Source of the DNA: Streptomyces sp. cg36
GTDB lineage: Bacteria > Actinomycetota > Actinomycetes > Streptomycetales > Streptomycetaceae
Direction: 5' to 3'
Assembly (NCBI RefSeq): GCF_041080675.1
Contig: NZ_CP163520.1
Span: 3,782,001 to 3,846,000, forward strand
DNA: 64,000 bases
Below, in pieces: positions 36,444 to 50,620 of this stretch. The position numbers and the translations under genes are program-made. The notes below the pieces were generated by a model, which ran no database searches, had not been told where the DNA came from, and saw only the letters and a program-made list of their open reading frames with translations. How positions within the stretch are numbered: position 1 is the stretch's first letter; the number at the start of each line of letters is the position of its first letter.

Positions 36444-36450
36444 CCGTTCC

Positions 36451-37731
36451 TCAGCCCTCGTTGTCCTGGTTTTTGTCCACAGGGGCCGTCCCGGGGGCTC
36501 CCCAGAGGGCTTCTGCGATCTTCCGGGCCACGTCCTTGAGCATCGCGTCGGGCACGTGGAGGTACCGCGCCCGCATGCCGGCGGAGGTGCCCGGCTCCCA
36601 CCCCATGATCTGGTCGATGACGCGGTCCGGGACGCCGAGCAGCATGAGCACGGTGGCGGCCGTGTGCCGAGCATCATGCAGCCGGGCGTCCCGCACCCCC
36701 GCGTCTTCCAGCATCCGCTTCCAGTCGTGGTAGTCCGTGTTCGGGCTCAGGGGCCCGCCCAGCGGCTTGGTGAACACGTACTCCGATGCGGTCCACAGGT
36801 CACCGGCCGCCGTGCGCTCACGCGCCTGCGTCTCGGCATGCGCACGGAGCATGACGACGAGCGGTCCCGGCAGGGGCACAGCGCGCCGGCCCGCGCGCGA
36901 CTTGGTGTTCTTGGTCTCGCGCCGGACATGCACCCGGTCCGGGCAGTACCCCGCCTTCCTCCCGCACGGCGAGGCTTCCGGGCAACCGTGCCCGTACTTG
37001 GGGCGCAGCCGGTTCCGGCGCAGCTTCAGGTACTCATTGGCCAGGTCGACGTCGGACCAGCGCAGCCCGAGCGTCTCCCCTTGCCGCAGTCCGAGCGCCA
37101 GCGCCAGCACCCAGCGCGCGCTGTTGCGGCGCTTGTTGGCTTCCAGCAACAGGCACTGAACCTCTTCCACGGAGTAGGGCTCTACCTCGGATGCGTCCTC
37201 TTCCATCCGAGGCGGCTTCGCCAGTGAGGCAGCGTTCTTCGCCGCGTGGCCGCGCCGTACCGCCTCTCCCAGAGCGGTTCGGGCGGTGCGGTGAGTTTGA
37301 TGGGCCGTACCGGCCTTGCGTGCCCCGTTGGCCTGCATCCGGCGGTACAGGCTCTCCAGGTGCTCGGGTTCCAGGCGGTCGAGCCGATGCTTGCCGACAC
37401 CGGGCACCAGATGAACGCGGACGGCCACCTCGTAGCCGTCGTAGGTGTTCTCACTGACCGTGGGCTTGGCGATGTTCTCGACCCAGTGCTGAAGCCACTT
37501 CTCAACGGTCCACGGCTTGCCGGGCTGGCGCGCCGAACCGGCGTCACGCTGCTTCTCCAGCCTTTTGACTTCCTCCACCAGCTCATCGCGCGTCTTGCGC
37601 GTCGTGTGGCGGCGGTACGGCTCCCCGGTGTCCTTGTAGCCCATCGGCACACGGGCGTGCCAACGGCCGTCTTTCCCGAAGTAGATCGCGGTTTCGCCGT
37701 TCGCACGGCGGGTGCCCTTCTTCTCTGCCAT
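36451..37731 (-). CDS. int: AICE tyrosine recombinase (integrase)
   Basis: 426 aa. N-terminal SAM-like/arm domain, then a catalytic domain with Arg in LGLRQGETLGLRWSDVDL, HxxR in LHDARHTAATVLM, a Trp in MGWEPG where many have His, and the nucleophile Tyr in RARYLHV. A cysteine-containing insert (CPEASPCGRKAGYCPD) is typical of AICE integrases. It catalyses site-specific insertion and excision at tRNA-Ser. AGGAG lies 9 nt before the ATG, and hairpin element H1 lies 38 nt upstream. Confidence 0.95.
   Translation of the reverse strand: MAEKKGTRRANGETAIYFGKDGRWHARVPMGYKDTGEPYRRHTTRKTRDELVEEVKRLEKQRDAGSARQPGKPWTVEKWLQHWVENIAKPTVSENTYDGYEVAVRVHLVPGVGKHRLDRLEPEHLESLYRRMQANGARKAGTAHQTHRTARTALGEAVRRGHAAKNAASLAKPPRMEEDASEVEPYSVEEVQCLLLEANKRRNSARWVLALALGLRQGETLGLRWSDVDLANEYLKLRRNRLRPKYGHGCPEASPCGRKAGYCPDRVHVRRETKNTKSRAGRRAVPLPGPLVVMLRAHAETQARERTAAGDLWTASEYVFTKPLGGPLSPNTDYHDWKRMLEDAGVRDARLHDARHTAATVLMLLGVPDRVIDQIMGWEPGTSAGMRARYLHVPDAMLKDVARKIAEALWGAPGTAPVDKNQDNEG
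36459..36479 (+). repeat. Candidate integrase arm site, left copy
   Basis: A 21-bp sequence containing TTGTCCTGGT and TTTGTCCA matches 52686-52706 with one mismatch. In the excised circle the two copies would flank attP in direct orientation. The copy lies in the last codons of int. Confidence 0.55.
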
Positions 37732-37768
37732 GGGCAGGGCTCCTGCTTCCTTGTGTGTCGGGATGGGG

Positions 37769-37811
37769 CCGGGGCGGCGGGCTGTCCTGTCCGGGAGTGC
37801 CGCCGCCCCGG
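37769..37811 (-). promoter_or_regulatory. Conserved AICE hairpin element H1 (before int)
   Basis: Stem CCGGGGCGGCGG/CCGCCGCCCCGG (12 perfect pairs) around the invariant 19-nt loop, which reads GCTGTCCTGTCCGGGAGTG on the plus strand. It ends 38 bp before the int start. A GTCGGGAT box lies between hairpin and RBS. Confidence 0.85.
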
Positions 37812-37830
37812 GCGTTGTTTGAGGCTGTTC

Positions 37831-38076
37831 TCAGGCTTCGAGGGCGATGATCGAGTCGATCCGGATCGCGACCGCGCCCCCTGACGCCAGCGGCCAGGTC
37901 ACGAACGTCGTGGCGACCGACTCGGTGAGGGCGGCGGACTCCATGAGCGCTTCCAGCCGGTTGACGTGTTTCTCCAGGCTGTGGCCGTTGGCGAGTACGA
38001 CCGCCTCGCGTTCCTGCTGGCCAACGACGTAGCGGATGATGAGCCGCGTCGACTCGAACTCGGGGTCGTAGAACAT
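37831..38076 (-). CDS. Small hypothetical AICE protein
   Basis: 81 aa, MFYDPEFESTRLIIRYVVGQ at the start. It appears to be a compact beta-rich protein (EREAVVLANGHSL, VATTFVTWPL, VAIRIDSIIALEA). The ATG at 38076 has AAGGAG 9 nt before it; the ATG at 38103 precedes that RBS and is less likely. Located between xis and int, so it may tune excision; this is only positional inference. Confidence 0.7.
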   Translation of the reverse strand: MFYDPEFESTRLIIRYVVGQQEREAVVLANGHSLEKHVNRLEALMESAALTESVATTFVTWPLASGGAVAIRIDSIIALEA

Positions 38077-38110
38077 CAAGTGAGGCTCCTTCGGATTTCT
38101 CATGCGGGCA

Positions 38111-38338
38111 CTAGGCGGCGCGTTGGGCGGTACGGAGGCGGGCGACGTATGCGGCTGGCGCGTCGGCGGGGACGCGGCGGAGGCGGCCGACGGGCACGGA
38201 CTCCAGCTCTCCGGAGCGGATGAGCGCGTAGCACGTGGTCCGGCCGATGCGGAGGCGGCGGGCGGCCTCTTCGACCTTGAGGAGAACCAGGGTCGGGTCT
38301 TCGGTCGGGGTCAGGGGAAGGGTGGTGGGTTCGTCCAC
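38111..38338 (-). CDS. xis: Excisionase-type helix-turn-helix protein
   Basis: 75 aa. KVEEAARRLRIGRTTCYALI then GELESVPVGRLRRVP is the AlpA/MerR-like winged helix of Xis proteins. Such proteins bend att DNA and shift Int toward excision. It ends 35 bp before the 81-aa gene. Confidence 0.9.
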   Translation of the reverse strand: MDEPTTLPLTPTEDPTLVLLKVEEAARRLRIGRTTCYALIRSGELESVPVGRLRRVPADAPAAYVARLRTAQRAA

Positions 38339-38377
38339 GGCTCACTCCTGTGAGGCTGAGTTCATGGGCAGGGGCCG

Positions 38378-38653
38378 CCGCACAAACCGCAAAATCCGCA
38401 GAAAAGCCGGGAGGGGCCGTTGACCTGCGGCGATGCGGTGTGCGGGCGGGGGTGGGCGGTGCTCCGCAGAAATCCGCGATATTCCGCAAAAATCAGGGGC
38501 GGCGGCCGGCCGTCCCCGGGGGCGGGGCGGCGCTCGGTTTTTTGCGGAATTTCGCGGGATTGTGCGGCGGGCCCTCGTCCGGGGTCGGCGTGGGGGCCCG
38601 CCGCAGGTCAGCGGCGGTGGCCGGGGTTTCTGCGGATTTTGCGGTTTGTGCGG
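38378..38653. repeat. Candidate replication origin: iterons inside a 27-bp inverted repeat
   Basis: A 27-bp sequence at 38378-38404 (CCGCACAAACCGCAAAATCC onward) recurs as its perfect inverse at 38627-38653. Inner arms ATTCCGCAAAAA (38475 region) and TTTTTGCGGAAT (38539 region) are also inverted. The core heptamer TCCGCAA/G appears about ten times in both orientations. The stretch is locally AT-rich and occupies the whole 339-bp gap between xis and the DUF3987 gene. Confidence 0.6.
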
Positions 38654-38677
38654 GAGGGATTGTGCGCGCGGCCGGGG

Positions 38678-40237
38678 TCACCGGCCGCCGTGGTGCAGGG
38701 ACGGGTGGGCCAGCAGGCGGGGTGCCGGGGGCCGTCCGCGCCTGCCGGTGCGCTCGGGCTGGTAGGACCGCAGGTATCCGTGGTCTTCCAGCAGCGCGAG
38801 GGCCGGTTCGAGATCAGCGACCGTGGGCACCTCGCTGCGGGACAGCACGCTGAAGACGTCCCGTCGGCTGACGTCCTCCCATCCGTTGTCCCGCAGCACG
38901 TCCAGCACGCTGCGGGCGCGGGAGAGGACCGGGTCGGCGCCCATGACGTCGAACACGGCGAGGGCATGGGCGGTGTAGTACCCGCCCAGCTCGATGGCCG
39001 CGCGCATGGTGGCCTCGGTCACTGGGCGGGCGTAGCCGTTGCCGCCGTGTGCGGCGAGGTGCAGCAGCGCGGCCATGCGGGCGGTCGCCCCGGCAAGCTT
39101 TCCGGCCCAGTTGGAGATGTGGCCCAGGCTGCCGCCGCGTGCCTTGAGCTGCGGTTCGATGTGCTCCTGATAGGCGATCAGGGTCGTGTCCGCTTCCGGG
39201 GTGAGCTGGATGACGGCCGGGTCGGTCCACTCCGCCAAAGAGAGGGTCAGGTCGATGACCCGGGCGGTGTAGGCGGCGGCCGTCTCTTCGGGGACCGGGG
39301 CGGTGATGATCTCGCGGTCACCGACGGTGGAGACCGGCAGGGAGTACAGGAAGCGGGCCAGCAGTCCGCGCCCCTCGAACCCCTTGACCTTCCCGATGTC
39401 GCGCAGCACGTCCGGCTGTACGGCGAGGCCGATGGTCAGCGCGGGGGCGTCGATGTACTCGCGGCGGGTCTGCCGGTTCACCCGCAGCCGGTCCCCGGCA
39501 TGCCCTTTCAGGAAGACTTCCATGTTGGGGGCGCCGGAATAGCGGCCGGCGATGATGTCGAAGATCCCGCCCTCCGCGCTCATCACCGACAGCCGCCCGC
39601 CCTGTTCGGCCATGAGTGAGGTGACCGTCTCGGGTGTCGAGTCGTCCGCCAGCAGCACCGGTTCGGCGGGGACGGTGAGCGTGTCGGCGGTCTGCGCGAG
39701 GCCGACGGCGGTGGCCACCATGTCGTCGTGCTTGTCGCCGTCGGCGGACGCGGCCTTGGCGGCGGCCTTGTCCGCCGCTTCCTTGGCCAGCCGCGCCGTC
39801 AGCTCCGCTTCCACGATCACCGGCTTCATGGCGGTCTTGAGCTGCTTCTCCGCCTCATAGAGGGGGTCGGTCAGCAGGGCGAAGACGGCGGACTTGCGGT
39901 TCGCGGGCGGGAGCGCCACCACGGTGTAGAGGTTGGTGGGCTCGCGCCAGTTGCCGCGCACGTGGACCACCGACCGGCCGCCGGCCGCCGTGGCGAGGAC
40001 GGCGAGGGCGACCGATCCGGCGAGGTCCACCGGGGTCTGCGTCTCCTGTGCGACGGCCGTCACGAACTCCGCCAACCAGGTGGGGAGGACGTGGGCGGGG
40101 AACGGGGGACGCTCACGGCGGCCGGTGAGGGGAATGGGGTCCTCCCACACGTCCGGTGTCGTGTCCTCGCCGGGCGGTTCTTCCAGGGTGGGCAGTCCGT
40201 CCCACAGGTTCGGGCTGTCCACAGGCTGTGGGGTCAT
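38678..40237 (-). CDS. DUF3987/YfjI-family replication-associated protein
   Basis: 519 aa. The helicase-like core has a degenerate P-loop, ALPPANRKSAVFALL (around residue 110), and FLKGHAGDRLRVNRQTRREY and GRGLLARFLYSLPVS. The C-terminal 90 residues look like a winged helix (RSVLDVLRDNGWEDVSRRDV). DUF3987 proteins accompany primase-polymerases on mobile elements and probably act as the replicative helicase or its partner. ATG overlaps the upstream stop (ATGA). The iteron region is directly downstream. Confidence 0.85.
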   Translation of the reverse strand: MTPQPVDSPNLWDGLPTLEEPPGEDTTPDVWEDPIPLTGRRERPPFPAHVLPTWLAEFVTAVAQETQTPVDLAGSVALAVLATAAGGRSVVHVRGNWREPTNLYTVVALPPANRKSAVFALLTDPLYEAEKQLKTAMKPVIVEAELTARLAKEAADKAAAKAASADGDKHDDMVATAVGLAQTADTLTVPAEPVLLADDSTPETVTSLMAEQGGRLSVMSAEGGIFDIIAGRYSGAPNMEVFLKGHAGDRLRVNRQTRREYIDAPALTIGLAVQPDVLRDIGKVKGFEGRGLLARFLYSLPVSTVGDREIITAPVPEETAAAYTARVIDLTLSLAEWTDPAVIQLTPEADTTLIAYQEHIEPQLKARGGSLGHISNWAGKLAGATARMAALLHLAAHGGNGYARPVTEATMRAAIELGGYYTAHALAVFDVMGADPVLSRARSVLDVLRDNGWEDVSRRDVFSVLSRSEVPTVADLEPALALLEDHGYLRSYQPERTGRRGRPPAPRLLAHPSLHHGGR

Positions 40238-40554
40238 GAGGCCGCCCTCCCTTCAGTGGTGGTGTGGGGGCATTCCCCGGCGCGGACGCGGGCGGTCAGC
40301 CGGATGACGGCGGCGCGGCCCCGGGAGCGTTCGTGCTGCCCACAGGCACAGAGCCAGTCCGCAACGGGGATGTCCTCGCACTGGATGTGAAGCCCGGGGG
40401 TGATGCCGGTGACAGCGATCGCCTGCGGGTCAGAGCCAACGGCAGAAAGGACGCCCTTACGGGCGGCGACCTTTGGTTCGCCCACGACCGGCCTCAGTGG
40501 GCGCCGGACAGCGTCGAGAGGGCCGTTCGTAGGGGTTCGGGATGCATTGTTCAT
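40234..40554 (-). CDS. Small hypothetical AICE protein with Cys/His cluster
   Basis: 106 aa. C-terminal part IQCEDIPVADWLCACGQHER and RAGECPHTTTEG could bind zinc (C, CAC, H, CPH). Such small proteins commonly sit between primase-polymerase and DUF3987 genes in AICEs. It overlaps both neighbours by ATGA, indicating strict co-translation and probably a role in the replication complex. Confidence 0.75.
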   Translation of the reverse strand: MNNASRTPTNGPLDAVRRPLRPVVGEPKVAARKGVLSAVGSDPQAIAVTGITPGLHIQCEDIPVADWLCACGQHERSRGRAAVIRLTARVRAGECPHTTTEGRAAS

Positions 40555-41429
40555 GCGGCACGCCCCACGGCCGTCTCCAGGCCGTTGGCGACCGCGCGAC
40601 GCGCGTAAGCCTCCGGGACGCCCACCGAGACGGCGGCAGTCACGATCTCTTCTCCGATCGCGGCAAGGCCGCACGGTCCGGGGCACGCGGTGTGCTGTGC
40701 GGCGAGGAACCGGGCGACGCCGAACGCCTGCGATCCCGCGCCGGATTCCGTGCGGGCCCGAACGAGGGCGAGGCCGCGTTCGAGACCGGCGCGGACGTAG
40801 CGCTCGGTGTGGCGGCACCCGGTGGCCACGTGCCGCGACCAGGTGGCGCGGCCGGGACGAGAAGAGGCCACCTCCCGCGGGGCGGGGGTGGTCTCTTCCT
40901 TCGCCACCAGGGCGCGCACGGCCGCCGGGAGGACGGCCATACGGCCGCCTCCGGGACCGAGCCAACGGGCGTAGGACATGAGGGATTTGATGTCCACTCC
41001 AGTCCGGACCGCGTTGTGCGACCGCATGGCGCCCCGGTAGATCCAGTGCTCACCGCGCGTCGTCGGCACGGTGCGGGTGGCGGGCAGGCTCTCGCGGGCC
41101 CATGCGACGGCCGCCGCATTGTCGAGATCCACCACGGTCAGCCCGGCCCCACCAGGGTGGTACGCCACAGCCACGGCGTGATGCCACGACGTGGCCCATG
41201 CGGGCGAGGTGAGAGCGTGCGGGTCGGTGGTCGCGGCGGCCCACGCGTGGCACGGCGCCGGGCACCGGCAGGGGCCCTCCGCCTTCATGTTGGGCCGGCC
41301 GCCGCACGCGTTCTGCTTGCACGTGCGGCAGTTGCCGAACGGAACCTTGCCCTGCCTCAGCGGCAGGACCGGGATGCCGGCCGCCGCGAGGGCGAGGGCA
41401 GCCCGTAGGACTCCGGGGGTGGTGCTCAT
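40551..41429 (-). CDS. Bifunctional DNA primase/polymerase (Prim-Pol)
   Basis: 292 aa. Archaeo-eukaryotic-primase fold: AAAGIPVLPLRQGKVPFGNC start, a cysteine knuckle (CRTC, CRCPAPC), catalytic acidic pair in GLTVVDLDNA, and His in TTRGEHWIYRG. It primes and probably copies the element after excision, the RepPP-type role in AICEs. Start and stop both overlap neighbours (ATGA). Confidence 0.9.
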   Translation of the reverse strand: MSTTPGVLRAALALAAAGIPVLPLRQGKVPFGNCRTCKQNACGGRPNMKAEGPCRCPAPCHAWAAATTDPHALTSPAWATSWHHAVAVAYHPGGAGLTVVDLDNAAAVAWARESLPATRTVPTTRGEHWIYRGAMRSHNAVRTGVDIKSLMSYARWLGPGGGRMAVLPAAVRALVAKEETTPAPREVASSRPGRATWSRHVATGCRHTERYVRAGLERGLALVRARTESGAGSQAFGVARFLAAQHTACPGPCGLAAIGEEIVTAAVSVGVPEAYARRAVANGLETAVGRAA

Positions 41430-42055
41430 GCCGCTGCCCTCCCTTCCAGGGCGAGGAACTGGGTGGCGATCCACTCGGTGTAGGCGGGGGGAACGGCCTG
41501 TCGGGCTTCGATGTTGGTCATCCAGGTGCAGCCCATGGCGTCGGCATAGGCACGCTCGCCCTTGTGCTCGAACGCCAGCAGACGTTTGTGGTGCCAGCAC
41601 GGCGGGACCAGGTCCCCGCCGCCGCCCCACGACGTCTCGAACCCACGGTGACGCCGGACGTTCAGCCCGAACTGAGTCCCGCACAGCAGGTAGTCCGGCC
41701 TCAGCGGAGCCTCGGGCACGTTCTCGATAACCCACGGCAGCCCCGAGGCTTCCAGCCGCGCGCGGCCGGGGGTGAGCAGGTCGGGGTGGTCCGCACGGCT
41801 TCCGCGCCACGCGGTGACGCGGGCGAAGTGCTGGCACGGCCACGACGCGTGGACCAGGTCGAAGCCGTCCAGCGGGAAGGTGAGGGCGTCGGCCTGGTGG
41901 AAGGTGAAGGGGTAGTTCGGCTGCGGGCGGTTGTCGACGCCCACGACGTCAAACCCGGCCAGGTAGTAGCCCATCGAGAGCCCTCCCGCCCCGCAGCACA
42001 GGTCCAGCGCCCGCAGGGCGTTCGGCCGCCGCAGCGGCAGCACACGCGCGTTCAC
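41426..42055 (-). CDS. Orphan cytosine DNA methylase-like protein 1
   Basis: 209 aa. SAM motif LDLCCGAGGLSMGYYLAGFD, then VHASWPCQHFARV (motif IV PCQ, with Trp before it) and WVIENVPEA (motif VI ENV). It lacks a long target-recognition domain. Clearly a paralogue of the next gene. GTG start overlaps the neighbour stop. No restriction enzyme is nearby. Confidence 0.85.
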   Translation of the reverse strand: MNARVLPLRRPNALRALDLCCGAGGLSMGYYLAGFDVVGVDNRPQPNYPFTFHQADALTFPLDGFDLVHASWPCQHFARVTAWRGSRADHPDLLTPGRARLEASGLPWVIENVPEAPLRPDYLLCGTQFGLNVRRHRGFETSWGGGGDLVPPCWHHKRLLAFEHKGERAYADAMGCTWMTNIEARQAVPPAYTEWIATQFLALEGRAAA

Positions 42056-42780
42056 GCGGCCACCCCCAGCACCGGAGCAGGGACGGCAAGCCCGGCAAGC
42101 GCCGCGCGGCCGACCCACGCGGTGTAGGAGGGCGGGATGCACTCGCGGATGCCGTCACGGTTCATCCACGGCACCCCCAGCACCCTGCGGGCCAGGTCGA
42201 CACCGGAGAAGTTCCCGACGAACTGGCCGTAGTGGCCGGGCGGCACAGGGCGCCCCATCTTGGCCTGCGGCACCAGGTGCACCGCGTGCACGGGCTGGGT
42301 GAGCGTGAGGCCGCCGCCCGGCTCGAAGAACCGGTGACGGTAGTTCTCCAGCCCGGACATGGTGCCGCACAGCATCACCGGGCTGTTCAGCTTCGGCACC
42401 GCACCCCGCACGTTCTCGATCACCCACGGCCGCCTGGTCGATTCCAGGACGGTGCGGGTGGGGGCGATCAGGTCGGGGTGGGCGTTGCCCTGGATGCGCT
42501 GGCATGCGCTGTCGTGCTGGCACGGCGGGGACGCGTGGATGAAGTCGAACCCGGCGCCGTACTCGCGGATGAAGGCGACCGCGTCCGCCTGAACGAAGGT
42601 GAAGGGGTAGCGGGGCTGCGGGGCGATGTCGACGCCGGTGACGTCGAACCCGGCGAGGTGGTAGCCCATGGATGCCCCGCCCTGGCAGCAGAACGCGTCC
42701 AGCAGACGCGGCCGGGGCACTCGCCCCGATCGAGTGGCAGGGGCCAAGGGGCCCTCGCCGTACGCGCGCAGTTCGGTCAT
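42052..42780 (-). CDS. Orphan cytosine DNA methylase-like protein 2
   Basis: 242 aa. LLDAFCCQGGASMGYHLAGF (motif I), VDIAPQPRYPF, HASPPCQHDSACQR (motif IV with PPCQ), VIENVRGAV (motif VI). It resembles phage and plasmid Dcm-like enzymes that modify the element's own DNA. AGGAG before the ATG and hairpin H2 40 nt upstream. First gene of the MTase-primase block. Confidence 0.88.
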   Translation of the reverse strand: MTELRAYGEGPLAPATRSGRVPRPRLLDAFCCQGGASMGYHLAGFDVTGVDIAPQPRYPFTFVQADAVAFIREYGAGFDFIHASPPCQHDSACQRIQGNAHPDLIAPTRTVLESTRRPWVIENVRGAVPKLNSPVMLCGTMSGLENYRHRFFEPGGGLTLTQPVHAVHLVPQAKMGRPVPPGHYGQFVGNFSGVDLARRVLGVPWMNRDGIRECIPPSYTAWVGRAALAGLAVPAPVLGVAA

Positions 42781-42819
42781 GCTGTAGGTCTCCTGTTCTG
42801 CTACGTCGGGATTCGGAGA

Positions 42820-42864
42820 CCGTGGGCGGCGGGCTGTCCTGTCCGGGAGTGCCGCCGCCCACGG
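42820..42864 (-). promoter_or_regulatory. Conserved AICE hairpin element H2 (before methylase 2)
   Basis: Stem CCGTGGGCGGCGG/CCGCCGCCCACGG (13 pairs) with the same 19-nt loop as H1. The outer pairs differ from H1 but remain paired. It ends 40 bp before the methylase start. Confidence 0.85.
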
Positions 42865-42870
42865 GCGTAA

Positions 42871-43338
42871 CTAGCCGTAGAACGTGTTCCGCTTGATGAC
42901 GGCCTTGCGGATGTTGACCGTTGTTCCGCCGCCGTGCCCGCTCGCGCTGAAGACCTGTACGGCGATCCAGCCGCCGAAGACGACGGCGGCCAGGATGATC
43001 AGCTGGTGGATGAACGCGGCGAGGGCCGCGAGGAACGTGGTCAGCAGGACCAGGCCGCCGCACACCGCACCGAACCCGATGCCTCCGAGCGCGATGTTCA
43101 CCGCCGCCCGCGAGGCAGTCGGCTTGACGGCGACCGGTTCGGGCTTGGCGGGCTCGATGGCATAGCCGGTGACGACGCGGCCGTCGGGCAGGACGACGCT
43201 CGCCACGGCCGGGATGGTGCCCGGCTGCACGGGCACCAGGGGCGCCGTGTGCGCGGGGGCGAGCGGGGCGGGGGTGCGGACGTGGACGGCCGCCGTCTCG
43301 TGTGCGACCGGGCGGCCGTACGGGGTGGGTTCGTTCAC
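42871..43338 (-). CDS. AICE membrane protein (spread/transfer-associated)
   Basis: 155 aa. Pro/Ala/Val-rich N-terminal half, then two hydrophobic helices (IALGGIGFGAVCGGLVLLTT and FIHQLIILAAVVFGGWIAVQ) and a short basic tail NIRKAVIKRNTFYG. No known domain. It lies in the membrane-protein block between TraB and the methylases, where AICEs encode Spd (spread) proteins; role by position only. Confidence 0.7.
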   Translation of the reverse strand: MNEPTPYGRPVAHETAAVHVRTPAPLAPAHTAPLVPVQPGTIPAVASVVLPDGRVVTGYAIEPAKPEPVAVKPTASRAAVNIALGGIGFGAVCGGLVLLTTFLAALAAFIHQLIILAAVVFGGWIAVQVFSASGHGGGTTVNIRKAVIKRNTFYG

Positions 43339-43358
43339 GGTGCTGGTCCCCCTTCGGG

Positions 43359-43553
43359 TCAGCGGCGGATGCCGGGTACGGCGTCGGTGAAGGCGGTGAC
43401 GAGCTGGTTGACGGTGTCGGCCGCGCCGGTGTGGGCGAGGTAGAAGCCGAAGAGCGCGACGGCGACGGCGGCACCGGCGCCGACGGCCTTGAACCGCAGG
43501 AGCAGCACGACGGTGACGGCGAGGAGCAGAACGAGCGGGACGGTGAGGGTCAC
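43359..43553 (-). CDS. Small AICE membrane protein
   Basis: 64 aa with two hydrophobic stretches (LTVPLVLLLAVTVVLLLRF and AGAAVAVALFGFYLAHTG) and a short C-terminus. Similar small proteins recur in Streptomyces AICEs; SpdD-like by position. Function unknown. Confidence 0.7.
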   Translation of the reverse strand: MTLTVPLVLLLAVTVVLLLRFKAVGAGAAVAVALFGFYLAHTGAADTVNQLVTAFTDAVPGIRR

Positions 43554-43569
43554 GGAATCTCCCGGCGGG

Positions 43570-43821
43570 TCAGCGGGTGCCGGCGCGGTAGGTGCGCGCG
43601 GCGCGGTTGTAGATCCAGCGGCCGACGCGTATGCGCTTGCCGGTCGCGTCGCAGCGGCGGCAGTCCTTGCCGCGCTTGGCGTTGCCCTTGCGGTCGGTCT
43701 TGATGGCGTGGCCCATGCCGGCGCACTTGCGGCAGTCCCCGAACGGGCTCAGCCAGCACGTGAAGCTGTAACCGAGTGTGACGGCGAGTAGGCAGGCGAT
43801 AGCGAGGAGAGGGAAGCTCAT
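43570..43821 (-). CDS. Small AICE membrane protein with zinc-ribbon cysteines
   Basis: 83 aa. One N-terminal helix (LLAIACLLAVTLGYSFTCWL), then C-x-x-C pairs CRKCAGMGH and CRRCDATGKR, a DnaJ-like zinc finger, and a basic tail. Located just after TraB; possibly part of the transfer apparatus. GAGAGG lies 5 nt before the ATG. Confidence 0.75.
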   Translation of the reverse strand: MSFPLLAIACLLAVTLGYSFTCWLSPFGDCRKCAGMGHAIKTDRKGNAKRGKDCRRCDATGKRIRVGRWIYNRAARTYRAGTR

Positions 43822-43910
43822 CAGGGCCTCTCAGGCGGGGTTTGGAGGGTTTCCGCAGTTCGGCCGCTAGCCGCTAGCAGCCTGATCAGGGGCGGTTTGG
43901 GTCGCTAGCA

Positions 43911-43932
43911 GGGTCGCTTGCGCAAGCGACCC
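43911..43932. promoter_or_regulatory. 22-bp perfect palindrome downstream of traB
   Basis: GGGTCGCTTG followed by its exact inverse, with further GGGTCGCT at 43899 and AAGCGACCC at 43946 forming an outer, imperfect arm. It lies between traB and the 83-aa gene and may be a terminator or a protein-binding site. Confidence 0.55.
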
Positions 43933-43963
43933 GTGGTGCTTACGCAAGCGACCCCGGGGGGAC

Positions 43964-46192
43964 CTATCCGGCGTCCCTCTTCTGATTGCGCTGGGTAATC
44001 GCGGCGGCCATGTCGTCGCGCTTGATGCCGCGCTTGTTGACCACCTTGCCGTCGATGCGGCGGCTGATCTGTTCCGTGGCCACCCCGTGCGGCTTGAGCG
44101 CGGCGGTGAGCGCTTCGGCCTTGGGCTTGGGCTCCAGCTCAGCCCACGGGCCGTAGACGTCCGGGCGCAGGTCGGCAAGGCGGTCCACGATGGTCTCCGA
44201 CCACACCTTGGTCTCGCCCTTGCCGAGCACGGCCGCGACGTCGTCCAGGATCGTCGCGGACGTCTCCAGTGCCGGGGCCTCGCCGGCCGCGTCGCCCGAC
44301 AGGGTCCCTTCGGCCTCGCGCAGGGCGGCGGCGCGGGTCAGGATGCGGTCGGCGTCGCGACCGTCGGCGAGGTAGGTGCGCACGATCCCGGAGTCGTCCG
44401 ACATGCCCTTCAGCAGACCGACGCCCTTGTGGGACTTGAGCAGCTTGGACGCGTCCAGGCCCTCGCTGTAGGAGCCGGCGCCGAGGATGGTGTCCGAGAC
44501 CTGGTAGGCGCCGACCCGCAGGGCGAACCGGGCCTGGTGCTGGTCGCGCAGCTCCGAGGGGCACGCCTTGTCGTCCGGCTTCTGCGTCGCCGTCATCACG
44601 CTGACGCCGACGGCCGGGGCGACCCGGGCGAGGTAGACCATCAGGGACAGGGTCTCTTTGCCGTGCTCGGGGTGGGTCAGGTACTCCTGGACCTCGTCCA
44701 CCACGAACAGGACCAGGGGCATGTTCAGCTTCTTGTCCCGGCTGATCTCCGGGGTGAGCTTGCCCTCCGGGCAGACATGCAAAGGCAGTTCGGACAGCCG
44801 GTGGTAGCGGTCTTCGACATCCGCCTTCAGCTCCCGCAGCGAGGTCAGCAGATGCTGAACCGGGTCGAACCCGCTCTTGGGCACGATCCCGAACCCGATG
44901 CGGTGGGCGACCTTGGTGAACGTGCGCCAGTCCGGCGACGCCTTCCCGTCGAACACGTACAGGCGCACGTACGGGTCCAGCGCGGCGGCGAGTGCGATCG
45001 TGCGGGCGGAGAACGTCTTGCCCTGACGCGGCACGGCGCCGACCAGCAGGGACAGCCACAGCATGGTGGCCATGACCGGGTTGCCGCGTTCGTCCACGCC
45101 CCACGGGAACGGCTTCCAGAAGTCCACCCGCGTCGCCCCCAGCAAAGGCGACTTGCCGGAGGGGACGGCGAGCGGGTCGCGGTCGGCGATCCAGTACGAC
45201 ACCCTGCGTCCGCTGGTCTCGTCCTTGTCGAGGAAGAGCTGCGTGGGGGCGATGTCCATGCCGGAGGCGAGCCGGGCGTGGGCCTTCATGGCGTCCTCGA
45301 ACGTCTTGCCGTAGGGCAGATCCACGACGACCCGCCATCCGTCGCCGTCCCGGCCGATCGGGCGCGGGAAGCCGATCGTCTGGTCCTTGCTGGTCAGCCC
45401 GGCCACCTCGTGGGCGCGGATGACGATGTCCGAGGACAGCTTGCGCTTGCGGAACGTCACCTTGGCCATGTCGATGAGCGGCCGGTCGGCCGGCGCTCCG
45501 ACCGCGCCGAGGGTGGTGGTCATCGCGGCCATGGCCAGCATGAGCAGCCATGAGGGTGCCATGACGTACAGGGTCAGGGCGGCGGCCAGACCGATGACGG
45601 CGCCGATCGTCGCCACGATCCCGCGCAGCCGGACCCGGTCGTTGCGCTGGCGCGAGAGCTTCAGGTACTCCGCCGCGTCCTCGTTGGCCACGGCCGCGAG
45701 CCGCAGGCCCTTGCCCTCCGCGTCGAACACCCACCGGCCGATCGCCGTCGACCACCGCCACGCGCCCCGCGGGGAGTACAGGCAGATCTTCGGCGTGTAG
45801 ACCAGCGGCAGGCGGATCGCGTGATAGCCGGCCACGGCGGAGTAGTGCCGCACCGCCCACTTGCGCACGGCCTTGCGCTGGTCGGGGAGCTTCACCCAGT
45901 CCGGCAGGACCGGCATCCTGGCCTTGTCCTTGGCTTCCATCCATTCCGCGACCGAGGGCGGGTAGACCTCGCGCGGCGGGTCCACCGGCGCCCCCTCGGC
46001 CAAGCCGTCGGCCTCCGGATCGTCGGTGTCGGGGAGTTCGGCCTCCCACTCCCCCGGCTTCACCACACCCTCACCGGGGGCGGTAGGGGCGGGGGCTGGT
46101 GTCTTCTTCAGCGGGAACGGCAGTACCTCCGCCGTCCGCTCCTCGGTGCTCTCCGGGTCGTCCGGTGTCAGGAACTCGGGGTTCTCCGTCAC
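43964..46192 (-). CDS. TraB/FtsK-SpoIIIE-like conjugative DNA translocase
   Basis: 742 aa. Two membrane helices (VATIGAVIGLAAALTLYVMA, LLMLAMAAMTTTLGAVGAP), a Walker A region LLVGAVPRQGKTFSARTIAL, Walker B MPLVLFVVDEVQEYL, and a C-terminal winged helix (VATEQISRRIDGKVVNKRGI). In Streptomyces such proteins pump double-stranded DNA between hyphae. GTG at 46192 has GAAGGAG 10 nt before it; the longer in-frame reading to 46291 has none. Confidence 0.94.
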   Translation of the reverse strand: MTENPEFLTPDDPESTEERTAEVLPFPLKKTPAPAPTAPGEGVVKPGEWEAELPDTDDPEADGLAEGAPVDPPREVYPPSVAEWMEAKDKARMPVLPDWVKLPDQRKAVRKWAVRHYSAVAGYHAIRLPLVYTPKICLYSPRGAWRWSTAIGRWVFDAEGKGLRLAAVANEDAAEYLKLSRQRNDRVRLRGIVATIGAVIGLAAALTLYVMAPSWLLMLAMAAMTTTLGAVGAPADRPLIDMAKVTFRKRKLSSDIVIRAHEVAGLTSKDQTIGFPRPIGRDGDGWRVVVDLPYGKTFEDAMKAHARLASGMDIAPTQLFLDKDETSGRRVSYWIADRDPLAVPSGKSPLLGATRVDFWKPFPWGVDERGNPVMATMLWLSLLVGAVPRQGKTFSARTIALAAALDPYVRLYVFDGKASPDWRTFTKVAHRIGFGIVPKSGFDPVQHLLTSLRELKADVEDRYHRLSELPLHVCPEGKLTPEISRDKKLNMPLVLFVVDEVQEYLTHPEHGKETLSLMVYLARVAPAVGVSVMTATQKPDDKACPSELRDQHQARFALRVGAYQVSDTILGAGSYSEGLDASKLLKSHKGVGLLKGMSDDSGIVRTYLADGRDADRILTRAAALREAEGTLSGDAAGEAPALETSATILDDVAAVLGKGETKVWSETIVDRLADLRPDVYGPWAELEPKPKAEALTAALKPHGVATEQISRRIDGKVVNKRGIKRDDMAAAITQRNQKRDAG

Positions 46193-46319
46193 GATGTACG
46201 CACTCCTTCGGGAGTCGAAGGGTCCGGCCGGCTTGCTGTGGAAGGTCGGGCGGCCGGGCCCGTGAGAAGAGAGTCGGCCCGGATGGGCCACAGGAGGGCA
46301 CGCAAAGTGCGTGCCTTGT

Positions 46320-46706
46320 TCAGGCGGCGCGCTGTTCCTGGGGATAGGCGCAGGTCACGCACATGCCGAGCGAGGTCGGGATGACGTATCCGGCGTCCGT
46401 ACGGCAGACGGGGCAGGTGCACCGGGCGAGCATCGCCAGCGCGAGCGCACCCCACTTCCGCGACGTCATCGCCCGCACCGGCAAGGCCAGTTCGACGCGG
46501 TAGAGGTAGGCCACGCTGACCCCGCCCGGGCGGCGGCGCGAGAGGCGCATGACCTGCGCCGCGATCGGCTGACCACCCGGCCGCAGACCCTGACTGCGAA
46601 GCTGACGGCGGGTCGCGAGGCCGTCGGGGGCGTACCGCCACGGGAAGGTGGGGACCCCGAAGCGGGCGCCGTCCGGGTCGAAGCACTTACCGAACGCCCC
46701 GCCCAT
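46320..46706 (-). CDS. RRQRL-motif zinc-binding AICE protein
   Basis: 128 aa. Contains TRRQLRSQGLRPGGQPIAAQ, the motif that names this family, and C-terminal cysteines CTCPVCRTDAG and MCVTCAYP for zinc. It overlaps the SpdB-like stop (TGATG); a GTG at 46709 is the alternative start. Found typically between TraB and Spd genes; role unknown. Confidence 0.8.
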   Translation of the reverse strand: MGGAFGKCFDPDGARFGVPTFPWRYAPDGLATRRQLRSQGLRPGGQPIAAQVMRLSRRRPGGVSVAYLYRVELALPVRAMTSRKWGALALAMLARCTCPVCRTDAGYVIPTSLGMCVTCAYPQEQRAA

Positions 46707-47812
46707 CACGCGGCCTTGGACCGCTCAGCGAGGATCGTGTCCCGCAGCGTCCGGGCACGCGCCGGCGAGGTGTGCAGGGCGCGGCGGATACCCTCAGCGG
46801 TGATCCGCGCATCCGGCCAAGCAGCCGTCGCGGTGCGCGCCTCAGCGAGCAACTGGGCTGACGTGCGCTTCGGTCGGGGCGATCGGGCCACCTCGGGAAC
46901 CCGGCCGGTCGCCCGGCGAGGCCGGGGAGCGGCGGCCGCGACCGCCCGCCGCTTGGCCGACTCGCCCGGCGCCGGATCGGGCGGGGCGATGGCCGGTGCG
47001 GGCTTGTGCGGGAGAGCCGGCTTCACATGGTCGACCGCCACCGGATCGAGCACCGGCAGACGCCTCACAGCAACAGGGGCCGGGGTCGATTCCGGCTGGC
47101 CAGCCGTAGACCGATTCCTCATAGTCTTGGCGAATTCCTCCGCATCTGCGACCGATGCGGGTACGGCGGTGGTACCGCCGAACATCGAGACCAGCGCGGC
47201 ATCCGCACCGCTCGTGATCCGGTCGCGCTGGACTTCCAGCAGCCTCGATCCGAGCGCCGCGTCCCCGACCCCGACCTTGCGGGCCAGACGCCACGACGCC
47301 CGGTCGGAACGCTTGCGGACCCGGTCGACCGGGTGGTGGGCGGCACGGGCGCGGTGGTAGGCCAGGGCTTGCACGATGTCGGCGGTGCGCCGCTCGTTCT
47401 CCGCATCCCGGCCGTCCGTGTGGACGACGATCCGGCGGGCGAGGAAGGCCATGCCTTCCGCCGACACGGACATGCCCATCGGGGTCAGGGCGTAGATGAC
47501 GGTGCGTCCCGGGTCCGGCGCGGCCATGGCGCCCATGACGGCGGCGCCCGCCGGCAGCGCCCACAGCCCACTCCGCACAACGCGCGGCGAGGACTGCCCC
47601 AGCATGGTCAGCCCCAGCAGGACCAGGGCCAGGACGGCGGTGGCGCCCTCGCCGGCGCCGAGCGCACCGAGCGCGGTCCCCGCGCCGTAGGCGTGCCCGA
47701 TGTTGCTGTAGGTACCGATCCCGCCGATCACGCCCGTGCCCAGCATCGGCACGAACGCAGCGACCAGGACACCGGCCTGAATCTTCGACAGGGGGCTTCG
47801 GGCCGCGCTCAT
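46706..47812 (-). CDS. SpdB-like membrane protein (intramycelial spread)
   Basis: 368 aa. Four hydrophobic helices in the first ~130 residues (IQAGVLVAAFVPMLGTGVIG, ATAVLALVLLGLTML, ALPAGAAVMGAMA), then a long Arg/Ala-rich, partly coiled region and a C-terminal helix-turn-helix-like segment (ITAEGIRRALHTSPARARTL). This architecture fits SpdB proteins that aid plasmid spread in mycelium. ATGA overlap with the upstream gene. Confidence 0.8.
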   Translation of the reverse strand: MSAARSPLSKIQAGVLVAAFVPMLGTGVIGGIGTYSNIGHAYGAGTALGALGAGEGATAVLALVLLGLTMLGQSSPRVVRSGLWALPAGAAVMGAMAAPDPGRTVIYALTPMGMSVSAEGMAFLARRIVVHTDGRDAENERRTADIVQALAYHRARAAHHPVDRVRKRSDRASWRLARKVGVGDAALGSRLLEVQRDRITSGADAALVSMFGGTTAVPASVADAEEFAKTMRNRSTAGQPESTPAPVAVRRLPVLDPVAVDHVKPALPHKPAPAIAPPDPAPGESAKRRAVAAAAPRPRRATGRVPEVARSPRPKRTSAQLLAEARTATAAWPDARITAEGIRRALHTSPARARTLRDTILAERSKAA

Positions 47813-48105
47813 GCCGCTTCCCCCGCCCCGGGCCGGTCGTCGCGGGCGGCGCGCAGGAACGGCACCGTACGGGTCAGCGCGTCGGCGTACAGGGCGTCCC
47901 AACCGGCGATCTCGTCACCGGCCTCCGCCTCCGCCACCAGGTCCGCGAGCACGCCACGGGCCGCGTCCTCCCGGGCGGCACGCTCACGGTCCGTCTCGCG
48001 CTTCAGCGGGCCCCGGAACAGGGCGATGTCGATACCGAGCGCCAGTTCCGCGAACTCGATGTCACCGTGCGCCTCCTGGCCGGCCACGAAGCTACGCATA
48101 CGCAT
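47809..48105 (-). CDS. Small hypothetical AICE protein
   Basis: 98 aa, cytosolic, Glu/Arg/Ala-rich and mostly helical (IALFRGPLKRETDRERAARE, LADLVAEAEAGDEIAGWDAL). ATG at 48105 with GGAGAG 7 nt before it; hairpin H3 lies 35 nt upstream. Overlaps the SpdB-like gene. No recognised domain. Confidence 0.72.
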   Translation of the reverse strand: MRMRSFVAGQEAHGDIEFAELALGIDIALFRGPLKRETDRERAAREDAARGVLADLVAEAEAGDEIAGWDALYADALTRTVPFLRAARDDRPGAGEAA

Positions 48106-48140
48106 GGTGGATCTCTCCAATCGGGTACGTCGGGAAGGCA

Positions 48141-48181
48141 CGGGGCGGTCGGCTGTCCTGTCCGGGAGTGCGACCGCCCCG
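48141..48181 (-). promoter_or_regulatory. Conserved AICE hairpin element H3
   Basis: Stem CGGGGCGGTCG/CGACCGCCCCG. The inner pairs are T-A and C-G where the other copies have C-G and G-C, so both strands changed together. Same 19-nt loop. Confidence 0.87.
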
Positions 48182-48194
48182 CGAAGAACGGGGA

Positions 48195-48653
48195 TCAGAC
48201 GGTGGCGATGATGAGCGCCGCGACCAGCAGCCACAGGTGATGGAAGGACTGGTCAAGCGCGTAGGCGCCGGTACCGATGTGCGGGTTGTCGTCACGGCCG
48301 GGGCGCGGGGCACCGAGCCGGTAGAACTCGCCCTTGCCGGTCACCCGGGCGAGCCACGCGAGGGTGGTGCGCCGGTCGGCCCACCAGTGCGAGGCCGCGT
48401 CGACCGCGAGCCCGACGACGACGCCGGGCGCCGACAGGTGCAGCCCCAGCAGTGCGGCGGCCGGCAGGAGCACGGCGAGCTTGGTGAGGGTGAGGGTGGC
48501 GACGTGCCGGGCGTCCGCGAGACGGCCGACCCAGCCGGGACGGCCCTTGTGTGCGGACTGGTGAGAGGTCTGCACCCAGTGGTCGCCCACGCTGTGGGCG
48601 ACGTAGAGGGCGATGAACACGGCGGCGAAGGTGGCGGCGTCCATGGCGGTCAC
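48195..48653 (-). CDS. DUF3307-like membrane protein
   Basis: 152 aa. Hydrophobic helices with conserved polar residues: FIALYVAHSVGDHWVQT, VVGLAVDAASHWWADRR, ALDQSFHHLWLLVAALIIAT. The H-x-x-x-D-x-x-x-Q and D-x-x-x-H-W patterns resemble DUF3307. GTG start overlaps the upstream stop. Common in AICE transfer regions; function unknown. Confidence 0.7.
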   Translation of the reverse strand: MTAMDAATFAAVFIALYVAHSVGDHWVQTSHQSAHKGRPGWVGRLADARHVATLTLTKLAVLLPAAALLGLHLSAPGVVVGLAVDAASHWWADRRTTLAWLARVTGKGEFYRLGAPRPGRDDNPHIGTGAYALDQSFHHLWLLVAALIIATV

Positions 48654-48880
48654 CGGCTCTCGTCGCGGGCCTGAACGAGCTGGATGGCCAGCCGGGCGAA
48701 GTGGGCCACGGCGTCGAAGTCCGCGAACGTCACACCGTGGATCCCGGCCGCCTGGATCATGTCGCGCAGGATCGCGGCGGCGTCGGCCTTCTGCCTGGCG
48801 GTCGGCCGGTAGCCGGGGGCGAACTCCAGCGCGGCGGACGTGATGCGGTTACCGATGTCGTTGAGGTCGCTCTGATTCAC
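48650..48880 (-). CDS. Small hypothetical AICE protein
   Basis: 76 aa, GTG start at 48880 (VNQSDLNDIGNRITSAALEF), AAGGAG nearby. Helical, contains ARQKADAAAILRDMIQAAG. Hairpin H4 lies 42 nt upstream. No domain recognised. Confidence 0.7.
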   Translation of the reverse strand: MNQSDLNDIGNRITSAALEFAPGYRPTARQKADAAAILRDMIQAAGIHGVTFADFDAVAHFARLAIQLVQARDESR

Positions 48881-48922
48881 TGCGCTTCCACTCCTTGAGC
48901 GAGTCGGGATCGGAGAACGGGC

Positions 48923-48955
48923 GCGGCGGGCTGTCCTGTCCGGGAGTGCCGCCGC
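48923..48955 (-). promoter_or_regulatory. Conserved AICE hairpin element H4
   Basis: Stem GCGGCGG/CCGCCGC (7 pairs, then mismatch and two more pairs) with the same 19-nt loop. Followed toward the gene by the shared GTCGGGAT box (plus-strand reading). Confidence 0.82.
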
Positions 48956-48983
48956 CCCGCGCGGGGCGAGGTGCGAGGGCTGA

Positions 48984-49436
48984 TCAGGGGTAGACGTGGC
49001 GGGCGCCGGCGAGTCGCAGCGCGGTGTGTGCCTTCCGGGCCCGGAGGCCGGCCGCATCCAGCTCGTCTGCGGGGACATCCCCAATAGCCATGGCTGCGTC
49101 TACGGCTTCCTGCGCGACGGCGAGCAGTTCCGTGTTGCGCGTGACCATGTGGAGCGTGTCCATCGCACTGGTGACGGCGGAGCGAGCCGCGTAGCGGGAC
49201 TGCCGCGCCTCGGGAGTGTCCTCCCTGTTCTCGCGGCGGGCTTCGATCTTCATGTACTGCTGTTCACGGTGTCGGACAATCGCGGCCAGCAACGCCGGAA
49301 TCGAAGTGGCCAACGCCTCCCGGCGCCGTTCGGCCGCCACCTCACGAGCGGTGCGCGCCGTGGTCACGTGCTGCATCAACCCGGCGACCACGGCGCCGGC
49401 GAGCGTGCCGAGCACAGCGATAAGCGTTCCGATCAC
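48984..49436 (-). CDS. Membrane-anchored helical AICE protein
   Basis: 150 aa from GTG 49436. One N-terminal helix (VIGTLIAVLGTLAGAVVAGL) then a long basic/acidic helix (TTARTAREVAAERRREALAT). First gene of the leftward operon. Similar in layout to the unrelated gene at 59248. Role unknown. Confidence 0.7.
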   Translation of the reverse strand: MIGTLIAVLGTLAGAVVAGLMQHVTTARTAREVAAERRREALATSIPALLAAIVRHREQQYMKIEARRENREDTPEARQSRYAARSAVTSAMDTLHMVTRNTELLAVAQEAVDAAMAIGDVPADELDAAGLRARKAHTALRLAGARHVYP

Positions 49437-49470
49437 GAGAACCCCCAAGGGTGAGTCGGGATGGAGAACA

Positions 49471-49509
49471 GACGCGGCGGGCTGTCCTGTCCGGGAGTGC
49501 CGCCGCGTC
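49471..49509 (-). promoter_or_regulatory. Conserved AICE hairpin element H5
   Basis: Stem GACGCGGCGG/CCGCCGCGTC (10 pairs); the outer GAC/GTC pairs differ from the other copies. Same 19-nt loop, 35 nt before the first operon gene. Confidence 0.85.
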
Positions 49510-49650
49510 CGCATCTGAGGGCTACAGCCGCTCAGCGCGACGGCCCAAGTGACCCCGGGCGGAATCTGATTCCGCGCCCTCACGGCTGGATGCCGGGGCC
49601 GACGGCCATCACCCGGCCGCCACGGGGACGGAGCAAAGCCCCGTCAAGCT

Positions 49651-49680
49651 CACAACACCCTGTTGAGTTCTCAAGGAACC
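49651..49680 (-). promoter_or_regulatory. rRNA-leader-like boxA element at the head of the AICE operon
   Basis: Minus-strand GTTCCTTGAGAACTCAACAG closely resembles the (T)TTGAGAACTCAACAG sequence in leaders of actinobacterial rRNA operons, where it supports Nus-dependent antitermination and processing. It lies between the operator region and the first gene of the ~13-kb leftward gene set. Confidence 0.6.
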
Positions 49681-49723
49681 GACGCTTCCTTTGGACCCCT
49701 TCCGAGGCCCTCCGGGCGCTGAG

Positions 49724-49741
49724 CCATTGTCCGTACAATGG
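49724..49741. promoter_or_regulatory. GntR (KorSA-like) operator O1
   Basis: Palindrome CCATTGTCCGTACAATGG, pattern CATTG-N6-CAATG, in the divergent promoter region of the GntR gene and leftward operon. Confidence 0.75.
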
Positions 49742-49792
49742 CTACAGTCAGGATGTTGGCAGCGTCACGCGCTGACGTCAAGAGGATTGGCC

Positions 49793-49810
49793 GCATTGAC
49801 TGGACAATGC
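49793..49810. promoter_or_regulatory. GntR (KorSA-like) operator O2
   Basis: GCATTGACTGGACAATGC, the same CATTG-N6-CAATG pattern, 34 bp before the GntR start; suits autorepression. Confidence 0.75.
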
Positions 49811-49843
49811 GTTCATCCATGCGGCTTCATGGGGGGTATGGCA

Positions 49844-50620
49844 GTGACCCGACTTGGTCGAAACCCGATGTATCAGCAGATCGCGGACGCGCTCCGCGAT
49901 CAGATCGCGTCCGGGAAGCTCGAACCCGACGCCAAGCTCCCGACCGAGGCAGAGCTTCGCGAGCAGTACGCCGTGTCACGCGAGACGGTGCGCAAGGCGC
50001 TGGCCCAGCTCGTCAACGAAGGTCTCGTGGTCTCCGCCCGGCCGCAGGGGCACTTCGTCCGCCGTCGGCGGCCGATGGTGTTCCGACCCCAGGCCGAGTT
50101 TCGGAAGCGGCCCTACTCACCGGAGATGGACGCCTTCATGACCGAGTACTCGGCAGAGGGGCGGGAGCCAAGGCAAGAGATCGAAGTGGGTATCGTCGAG
50201 CCTCCGGCAGAGGTGGCCAAGCGACTTCATCTGGAGGCCGGTGAGCTGGTCGCGGTACGCAAGCGCGTGCGGTACCTCGATGGTGAGCCTTTCAACATCA
50301 ACGACAGCTACTTCCCGCTGGCCATAGTGCGAGACTCCGAGATCATGCGTCCGGAGGACATCACTCGCGGCGCGAACGAGGTACTGGCCGAGCTCGGGTA
50401 CCGACAGGCACGGGCTTTGGACGAGTTGTACGTCCGGATGCCGACGCCCGAGCAGGTACACAGGCTGGACCTCGGCCCCGGAACACCCGTGGGGGTACAC
50501 GTGGTAACCGGCTTCACGACGGAAGGAAAACCTGTGCGGGTGGCAGTGACCGTGCTTCCTGGTGATCGGCACGTGATCTCGTATGAGCGCCAGCGCGAAG
50601 CGCCGACAGAGGAAGCATGA
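49844..50620 (+). CDS. GntR-family repressor (HutC subfamily, KorSA-like)
   Basis: 258 aa. N-terminal winged helix (MYQQIADALRDQIASGKLEP then YAVSRETVRKALAQLVNEGL) and a UTRA ligand domain (EIEVGIVEPPAEVAKRLHLE). In pSAM2 the KorSA protein of this family represses transfer and replication genes. GTG 49844 has GGGGGG 7 nt before it; ATG 49838 is also possible. Stop overlaps the acetyltransferase (ATGA). Confidence 0.9.
   Translation: MTRLGRNPMYQQIADALRDQIASGKLEPDAKLPTEAELREQYAVSRETVRKALAQLVNEGLVVSARPQGHFVRRRRPMVFRPQAEFRKRPYSPEMDAFMTEYSAEGREPRQEIEVGIVEPPAEVAKRLHLEAGELVAVRKRVRYLDGEPFNINDSYFPLAIVRDSEIMRPEDITRGANEVLAELGYRQARALDELYVRMPTPEQVHRLDLGPGTPVGVHVVTGFTTEGKPVRVAVTVLPGDRHVISYERQREAPTEEA

Follow-up and report, generated by a model that had tools for sequence, protein, structure and literature searches.

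An integrative element in Streptomyces sp. cg36 carries five copies of a hairpin with one and the same 19-nt loop, each just upstream of one of its genes. The element lies in the window, by which we mean the whole 64,000-nt stretch analysed here (contig NZ_CP163520.1, positions 3,782,001 to 3,846,000). It adjoins a tRNA-Ser gene (36301-36388), has its operon on the minus strand, and was called an actinomycete integrative and conjugative element (AICE) because an integrase, an excisionase, a transfer gene and a GntR regulator are present. Comparison with related elements suggests that the hairpins belong to messenger RNA (mRNA) leaders, that their loop is specific to each AICE, and that an element-encoded factor reads this loop and controls expression, a reading to which we give a probability of about 0.6. 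The level at which the factor would act is probably translation.

An earlier description of this DNA, here the original prediction, was made from the letters alone and had claimed five hairpins with an invariant 19-nt loop, used inside the AICE only, standing in one orientation before start codons and separated from the ribosome-binding site (RBS) by a GTCGGGA box on the plus strand. These points were borne out. All five loops are exact, sit on paired stems and lie on the minus strand within the AICE. Element 1 (37757..37811; 73.4 bits) precedes int, which starts at 37731; it has a 12-bp stem (37769-37780/37800-37811), a loop of what we term type A in its short form (37781-37799) and a TCCCGAC box at 37757-37763. 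Element 2 (42805..42864; 79.8 bits), before a methylase-like gene starting at 42780, has a 13-bp stem, a loop at 42833-42851 and the box at 42805-42811; here GGUCUCC/GGAGACC can also close over the RBS. Element 3 (48129..48183; 75.9 bits) stands before a 98-aa gene (start 48105) with a 13-bp stem, alternative GGUCG/CGACC inner pairs, a loop at 48152-48170 and the box at 48129-48135. Element 4 (48903..48958; 67.2 bits), before a 76-aa gene (start GTG 48880), has a 10-bp stem with one mismatch, a loop at 48930-48948 and the box at 48903-48909. Element 5 (49455..49512; 79.6 bits), with a 13-bp stem, a loop at 49481-49499 and the box at 49455-49461, precedes a 150-aa gene (start GTG 49436) that is probably the first of the operon. 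The stems are GC-rich, and some of them end in G-U. From the outer stem end to the start codon the distance was 31-39 nt for all five genes, and TCCCGAC, which is GTCGGGA on the plus strand, followed each hairpin. By eye there was no T run after the hairpins of the kind expected of an intrinsic terminator (no terminator scan was made), and the start codon follows only 31-39 nt downstream. A sixth hairpin, overlooked in the original prediction, lies at 46220..46261 on the minus strand before an FtsK/TraB-like gene and has an 11-bp stem and a loop of a different kind, here called tra-type (CCCGACCTTCCACAGCAAGC).

Loop matches at up to three mismatches were expected by chance at 0.04, and five matches were seen in none of 100 shuffles. 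The 9.0-Mb genome of the strain held 16 such matches: the five exact copies, one with two mismatches and ten elsewhere with three. In this genome a covariance model found the five copies only (E <= 0.001).

Stem sequences differ among copies and remain paired. In type A, 49 alignment cells were altered on both sides compared with 16.1 after shuffling, and the covariation score was 0.322 compared with 0.143 (neither reached in 500 shuffles); slid-register controls scored at most 0.083, and the rows had passed a mild pairing filter. Type B, a second loop type described below, showed both-side changes in 10 of 16 pairs compared with 2.5 shuffled (0/500) and a score of 0.218 compared with 0.121, its rows having been selected by a hairpin scan (at least 8 Watson-Crick pairs) that inflates percent paired. 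When type-A copies were picked by loop alone, 106 of 111 kept at least 6 of the inner 7 pairs, and 320 of 369 cells were paired compared with 296.5 in shuffled sets (maximum 308 in 500 shuffles). Within the loop, an upper three-pair helix (UCC/GGA, UCU/AGA or UGU/ACA) was possible in 33 of 44 distinct loops, which are not independent of one another, compared with 7.6 after shuffling (maximum 14 in 300). A stem statistic for tra-type hairpins was dropped, since these had been picked for pairing and their registers differ.

Orientation was assessed over 90 fetched regions, two of which overlap (L187 and L284, one AICE; L and G numbers are our handles for loci and genomes). Stem-bearing loop signatures (at least 8 pairs) numbered 128, with 125 sense and 3 antisense to the operon, and an RBS and start codon lay within 85 nt after 124 of the 125 sense copies. 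Loop signatures without such a stem were found 118 times in sense and 83 times in antisense. Use in the sense direction only, the position ahead of start codons and the covariation of the stems argue for a transcript element rather than a DNA site and support the view that the hairpins act as mRNA leader elements. The idea of a structured RNA serving as leader to several genes, put forward in the original prediction, thus gained support from wider alignments.

The loop itself is constant only within an element. At least six loop types were distinguished, with subtypes, and the window loop (A) is one of them; type B reads CUCUCxCCAAAGACC and type F GUCUCxCCAAAGCC, with subtypes at x, and types C, D and E are ACUCCCCAGCAAGGUCG, CCGACCAACGAC and UUCCACGCCAAGGAC. 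By eye the box varies with the loop: UCCCGAC for A, UCCCUUCGA for many B and GUCCCUCCA for many F. Leaders before the 98-aa gene and before the rep/methylase genes were of the same type in 39 of 39 AICEs (19 A, 16 B, 2 C, 1 D and 1 E) compared with a permuted mean of 15.9 and a maximum of 28 in 10,000, after the gene in L229 had been moved by hand from tra to rep/methylase. At the apical 8-mer, the 98-aa leader agreed with another leader in 31 of 31 AICEs across eight subtypes (permuted mean 8.0, maximum 17). These two sets overlap, and only AICEs in which both leaders were recognised are counted; among those that stand outside are L234, L237, L245 and L262, where the rep/methylase leader carries a type-B-like loop and the 98-aa leader no recognised one. 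Agreement extended to a doubly changed upper helix (UGU/ACA) present at both L268 leaders and, in other genera, to L317 (four copies), L319, L320 and L321. Different types also occur within one genome: A and B in G364 and in G366, B2 and D in G069, and F-U and C in G237. The invariance described in the original prediction holds for the five copies of this AICE; across AICEs the loop is element-specific and changes in concert, a feature the prediction had not contained.

These patterns suggest a mechanism in which each hairpin would belong to the mRNA leader of the gene that it precedes. The loop would be presented on a strong stem whose sequence varies, and its apical part, in which about 6-7 nt cap an upper helix of 3 bp, would be common to the leaders of one AICE and differ between AICEs. 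A single-stranded UCCC...CGA box would come next, followed by the RBS and start codon. A trans-acting factor encoded by the element, either a small RNA-binding protein or an RNA, may read the loop and control the gene blocks together, most simply by opening or closing access of the ribosome. Loop type would then act like an immunity type, each AICE regulating the messages that it makes itself and leaving alone those of any other AICE in the genome. In its full form, this would be an RNA-level self-recognition code used by AICEs in Streptomyces and allied genera: every element would have a loop type of its own (at least 10 distinguishable) and encode the factor that reads it, types would switch in concert, and co-resident AICEs would not cross-regulate; we advance this larger proposal tentatively, at somewhat less than even odds. 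Such a system would provide a post-initiation level of control that couples the genes for excision, replication and transfer. It could account for the way in which AICEs sharing a genome escape regulation by one another, and would be an RNA counterpart of phage immunity types. AICE gene control has been described at promoters, by a KorSA-type repressor and the activator Pra (available portions of PMC8584621).

Predicted RBS accessibility differed by gene class. The RBS was on average unpaired at 0.28 in rep/methylase leaders, 0.28 in MTER leaders and 0.34 in 98-aa leaders, compared with 0.43 in 320 control genes; tra leaders (0.39) and other leaders (0.53, n=5) were compared with the same controls, all values being uncorrected for kinship. 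This modelled occlusion would support translational control for the rep/methylase and MTER leaders and, weakly, for the 98-aa leaders. By eye, loops of types A, C and D contain a CUCC-like stretch that could base-pair with GGAG; tra-type loops do not match the ribosome sites of their own leaders. On the pairing between loop and RBS suggested in the original prediction, covariation cannot decide because the RBS hardly varies. Mean loop-to-start distance was 41.5-52.0 nt by gene class (s.d. 1.3-5.2), a range limited by the search window. Coat-protein operators of RNA phages such as MS2 and PP7 are likewise hairpins at a translation start with a virus-specific loop, usually one site overlapping one gene start; in the AICEs the hairpins form a multi-gene set in an integrative element.

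Several results weigh against element-specific leader control. Type-A pairs with both-side changes numbered 8 of 13, a count reached by 51 of 500 shuffles, and the aligned rows are related, so that permutation figures overstate independence. Among copies picked by loop alone, type B had 85 of 126 cells paired compared with 86.2 shuffled (in one fixed register, 7 of 28 copies being in another), and type C had 39 of 45, equal to the shuffled maximum (5 distinct stems). Loop types were defined after the loops had been seen, and a leader whose loop went unrecognised is missing from the concordance counts. L318, from another genus, has different loops at two leaders, and the rep/primase leader of L231 (8052-8118) has a type-B loop that lies inverted within its stem, as though turned round between the two arms. 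Int leaders showed no RBS occlusion (0.47 compared with 0.43 in the 320 control genes), and a general second helix over the RBS was rejected, being found in rep/methylase leaders only (overall 4.48 compared with 4.27 in controls). A trans factor was not identified, and among the shared proteins none follows the subtypes closely. Gene families beat chance at predicting the subtype, and shared descent therefore explains part of the pattern: the nearest gene relative was of the same subtype in 9 of 34 cases for RRQRL (5.3 expected), 19 of 46 for tra (8.7), 23 of 39 for the 98-aa gene (9.5), 29 of 47 for methylase/primpol (10.7) and 16 of 22 for primase (8.3), with loop types in these comparisons assigned partly by hand. 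As a predictor of type, ancestry falls far short of the other leader of the same AICE.

Mosaic elements and near-identical pairs narrow where a reading factor may lie and point to the arms of the AICE, on the GntR side and the xis/int side. In L276, the tra, RRQRL, methylase and primase proteins are nearest to those of type-A AICEs (90-96%), yet a type-B loop stands at both the 98-aa and the rep/methylase leader. These four kinds of protein are thus unlikely determinants of loop type, although a few changed residues may still matter; the arginine-rich RRQRL protein tracks subtype least. L271 and L272 are 97% identical in tra and RRQRL, their loops differ (U versus A subtype) alike at both leaders, and their GntR-side genes are merely 46-57% alike. 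The 98-aa protein is also an unlikely determinant, as closely similar proteins occur with different loops (L271/L272; L264 versus L257 and L260; L242 versus L248). With types again assigned partly by hand, one N-terminal position in it is Ala in 20 of 20 type-A proteins and Gly in the other 39, including L276, and its sequence leaves room for a role in the difference between A and the rest. It is unlikely that a host factor on its own determines the type, because AICEs of one genome can differ in it: the four genomes noticed to have at least two typed regions are each of mixed type (in G069, two of the three regions agree).

A narrower form of the proposal makes the reading factor an antisense RNA. 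The opposite-strand RNA of one hairpin would pair in trans with all leader loops of the same AICE, and changes at the source would force changes in the others. Such control would account for loops that stay identical while their stems differ, for the rapid change of type and for the lack of a distinct antisense gene; complementary 8- to 11-mers outside the hairpins were not clearly enriched in matching AICEs, nor were subtype-matched loop complements, and no separate antisense RNA stood out. In antisense-controlled plasmid replication leaders (CopT, ColE1), the loop decides compatibility and the stems are kept; the AICEs differ in having several target genes per element and no antisense gene that stood out on its own. 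Type-A loops come in a short and a long form that vary from leader to leader within a single AICE, which strict pairing would disfavour, and we consider antisense control unlikely.

Processive antitermination or anti-Rho action of the lambda nut type, which departs from leader control of translation in the level of control, appears improbable to about the same degree. As in the main proposal, the factor that reads the loop would be specific to the element; it would be brought to RNA polymerase, and the linear box would recruit a host factor. The specificity of N differs between lambdoid phages, and here too the hairpin loop is element-specific, as leader concordance indicates. The combination of a hairpin and a linear box, in several copies per operon, fits this scheme. 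In lambdoid nut sites (boxA and boxB), N reads the boxB hairpin through an arginine-rich motif, a factor-read loop beside a linear box (accessible part of PMC3526286). In the AICEs, by contrast, the box follows the hairpin, the loop is larger, no N-like protein was identified, and the multiple copies lie close to ribosome sites before individual starts, also deep in the operon rather than once near the promoter; some leader classes can also occlude the RBS.

A DNA-level role seems less probable still. The hairpin would be either a double-stranded protein site, like the stoperators of phage L5, or a single-stranded-DNA replication hairpin, and its stem would matter little as RNA. Stoperators of Cluster A mycobacteriophages are dispersed, asymmetric and element-specific, lie mostly in one orientation relative to transcription, and have motifs similar but not identical between phages (PMC6550527, as far as its text was available), and the AICE copies resemble them in these respects. 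Stoperators are, however, double-stranded repressor sites that need no stem, whereas the A and B stems here covary (in the loop-only check, type A only), and a hairpin used in replication would have no need of a constant spacing ahead of ribosome sites. An IS200/IS605 or REP-type DNA hairpin was not indicated either: rather than being scattered, the copies recur in front of a small set of gene types (no search for a transposase was made). Template switching occurs readily at inverted repeats, and the inverted L231 loop looks like such an event, yet it is very improbable that stem pairing and loop identity have no regulatory role and are mere by-products of templated mutation or gene conversion among short inverted repeats, as stems differ among leaders while the loop stays, 124 of 125 sense copies precede starts, and concordance includes the doubly changed helix of L268.

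Known RNA families did not account for the hairpins. Rfam 15, the database search that the original prediction had proposed, gave no match at the gathering cut-off on leader hairpins in the window or seven other regions, and at E <= 5 none of 14 matches in window positions 36000-52000 overlapped the six elements. One known structured RNA, gntR-DTE (RF02989), occurs in some of the same AICEs and is another structure. Its 119-nt covariance model had no gathering-score match in the window and none in the genome of the strain at E <= 0.001 under stricter filters; 15 of 101 genus genomes matched at E <= 0.001, 13 of them over the cut-off. In L282 (7465-7590), and also in L265, L227 and L177 (the last below cut-off), it is found in the AICE leader ahead of the 98-aa gene. 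As a reading RNA it is not favoured, showing no loop complement by eye, although the copies with known AICE type are not numerous enough for a decision (L288-L290, of type B or B2, and the diverged L300, of type A). In the window, positions 49598-49630 of the minus strand, in the operon leader upstream of element 5, resemble the 5' part of gntR-DTE RNA (CGGGTGATGGCCGTCGGC) and are unscored by the Rfam model. At about 7823-7888 in L282, and similarly in L216, L217 and L299, a long GC-rich inverted repeat (GGTTGCCTCCCCGCCCGT...) lies just upstream of the 98-aa leader hairpin and is perhaps another structured RNA. A full-text literature search yielded no report of such hairpins, which is weak evidence of novelty because most subscription papers lie outside it; the word hairpin is unused in the available text of the AICE papers PMC3218068, PMC8584621 and PMC9513070 (term search).

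The hairpin is not a repeat private to this element. Loop core and box were scanned in one genome per species over 84,980 species, and 66 stretches were found, several sharing one contig. A covariance model, also proposed in the original prediction, was built from 41 distinct copies and gave 90 matches in 52 of the 66 stretches (E <= 1e-4; stretches of one contig may overlap), all in Streptomyces. The 14 stretches without a match comprised 11 from other organisms and 3 from Streptomyces. The short-form pattern was present in 20 of 392 genus genomes, 16 being real by stem reading, the strain's own included. Regions having a match above 50 bits held 1-5 type-A loop copies (19 of 30 sources). In a family survey of 121 genomes, the covariance model matched 17 genomes in 6 of 17 genera, and copies were read directly in 9 of 12 other-genus genomes, from four other genera. 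A type-B model run on 197 genomes of the class under stricter filters matched 4 genomes, of this genus only, some weakly. With the 98-aa protein as bait, relatives were found in 109 of 382 genomes, and large regions were fetched for part of these matches. Viral contigs held no exact short-form copy, and phages and plasmids held no 98-aa relative at E <= 0.001.

Matches with two mismatches in the genus gave the impression of numerous copies and were discarded: among the 30 loci L009-L038 only L018 had a stem, and the recurrent CACCCCCGGACAGGACCGC is a coding coincidence that by eye reads ..FGTPGQDRF.. in translation. A weak type-B model match (40 bits, E 5e-4) with loop CACAGTCGCCAAACTTC lies on another contig of the same genome (L308, G000:C3:33841-33908). 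Close int relatives in L139, L142, L144, L145 and L148 lack the loop and have plain short-loop hairpins at the same place upstream of int.

The genes downstream of the hairpins all lie on the minus strand. Int (36451..37731) is a tyrosine recombinase (PF00589, 6.1e-18). The gene behind element 2 (42052..42780) has no Pfam match of its own and was called methylase-like because it clusters with a neighbour having a sub-cut-off methylase match. The FtsK/TraB-like transfer gene tra (43964..46192, start GTG 46192), behind the sixth hairpin, matches NF041214 at E 0.004, far under its cut-off. An RRQRL motif-containing zinc-binding protein is encoded at 46320..46709 on the same strand, and elements 3, 4 and 5 precede the 98-aa gene (47809..48105), which has no assigned function, the 76-aa gene (48650..48880) and the 150-aa gene (48984..49436). 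A GntR/UTRA regulator, KorSA-like by analogy, is divergent to the operon (49829..50620, plus strand). The replication module includes a DUF3987 protein (38678-40237, 5.9e-109). Outside these genes, Rfam calls a tRNA at 22773-22844 (50.8 bits) that is absent from the ARAGORN list. On the minus strand at 37600-38150, 44% of the stretch is matched at 70.7% by a plasmid record from Streptomyces niveus (AWQW01000318.1).

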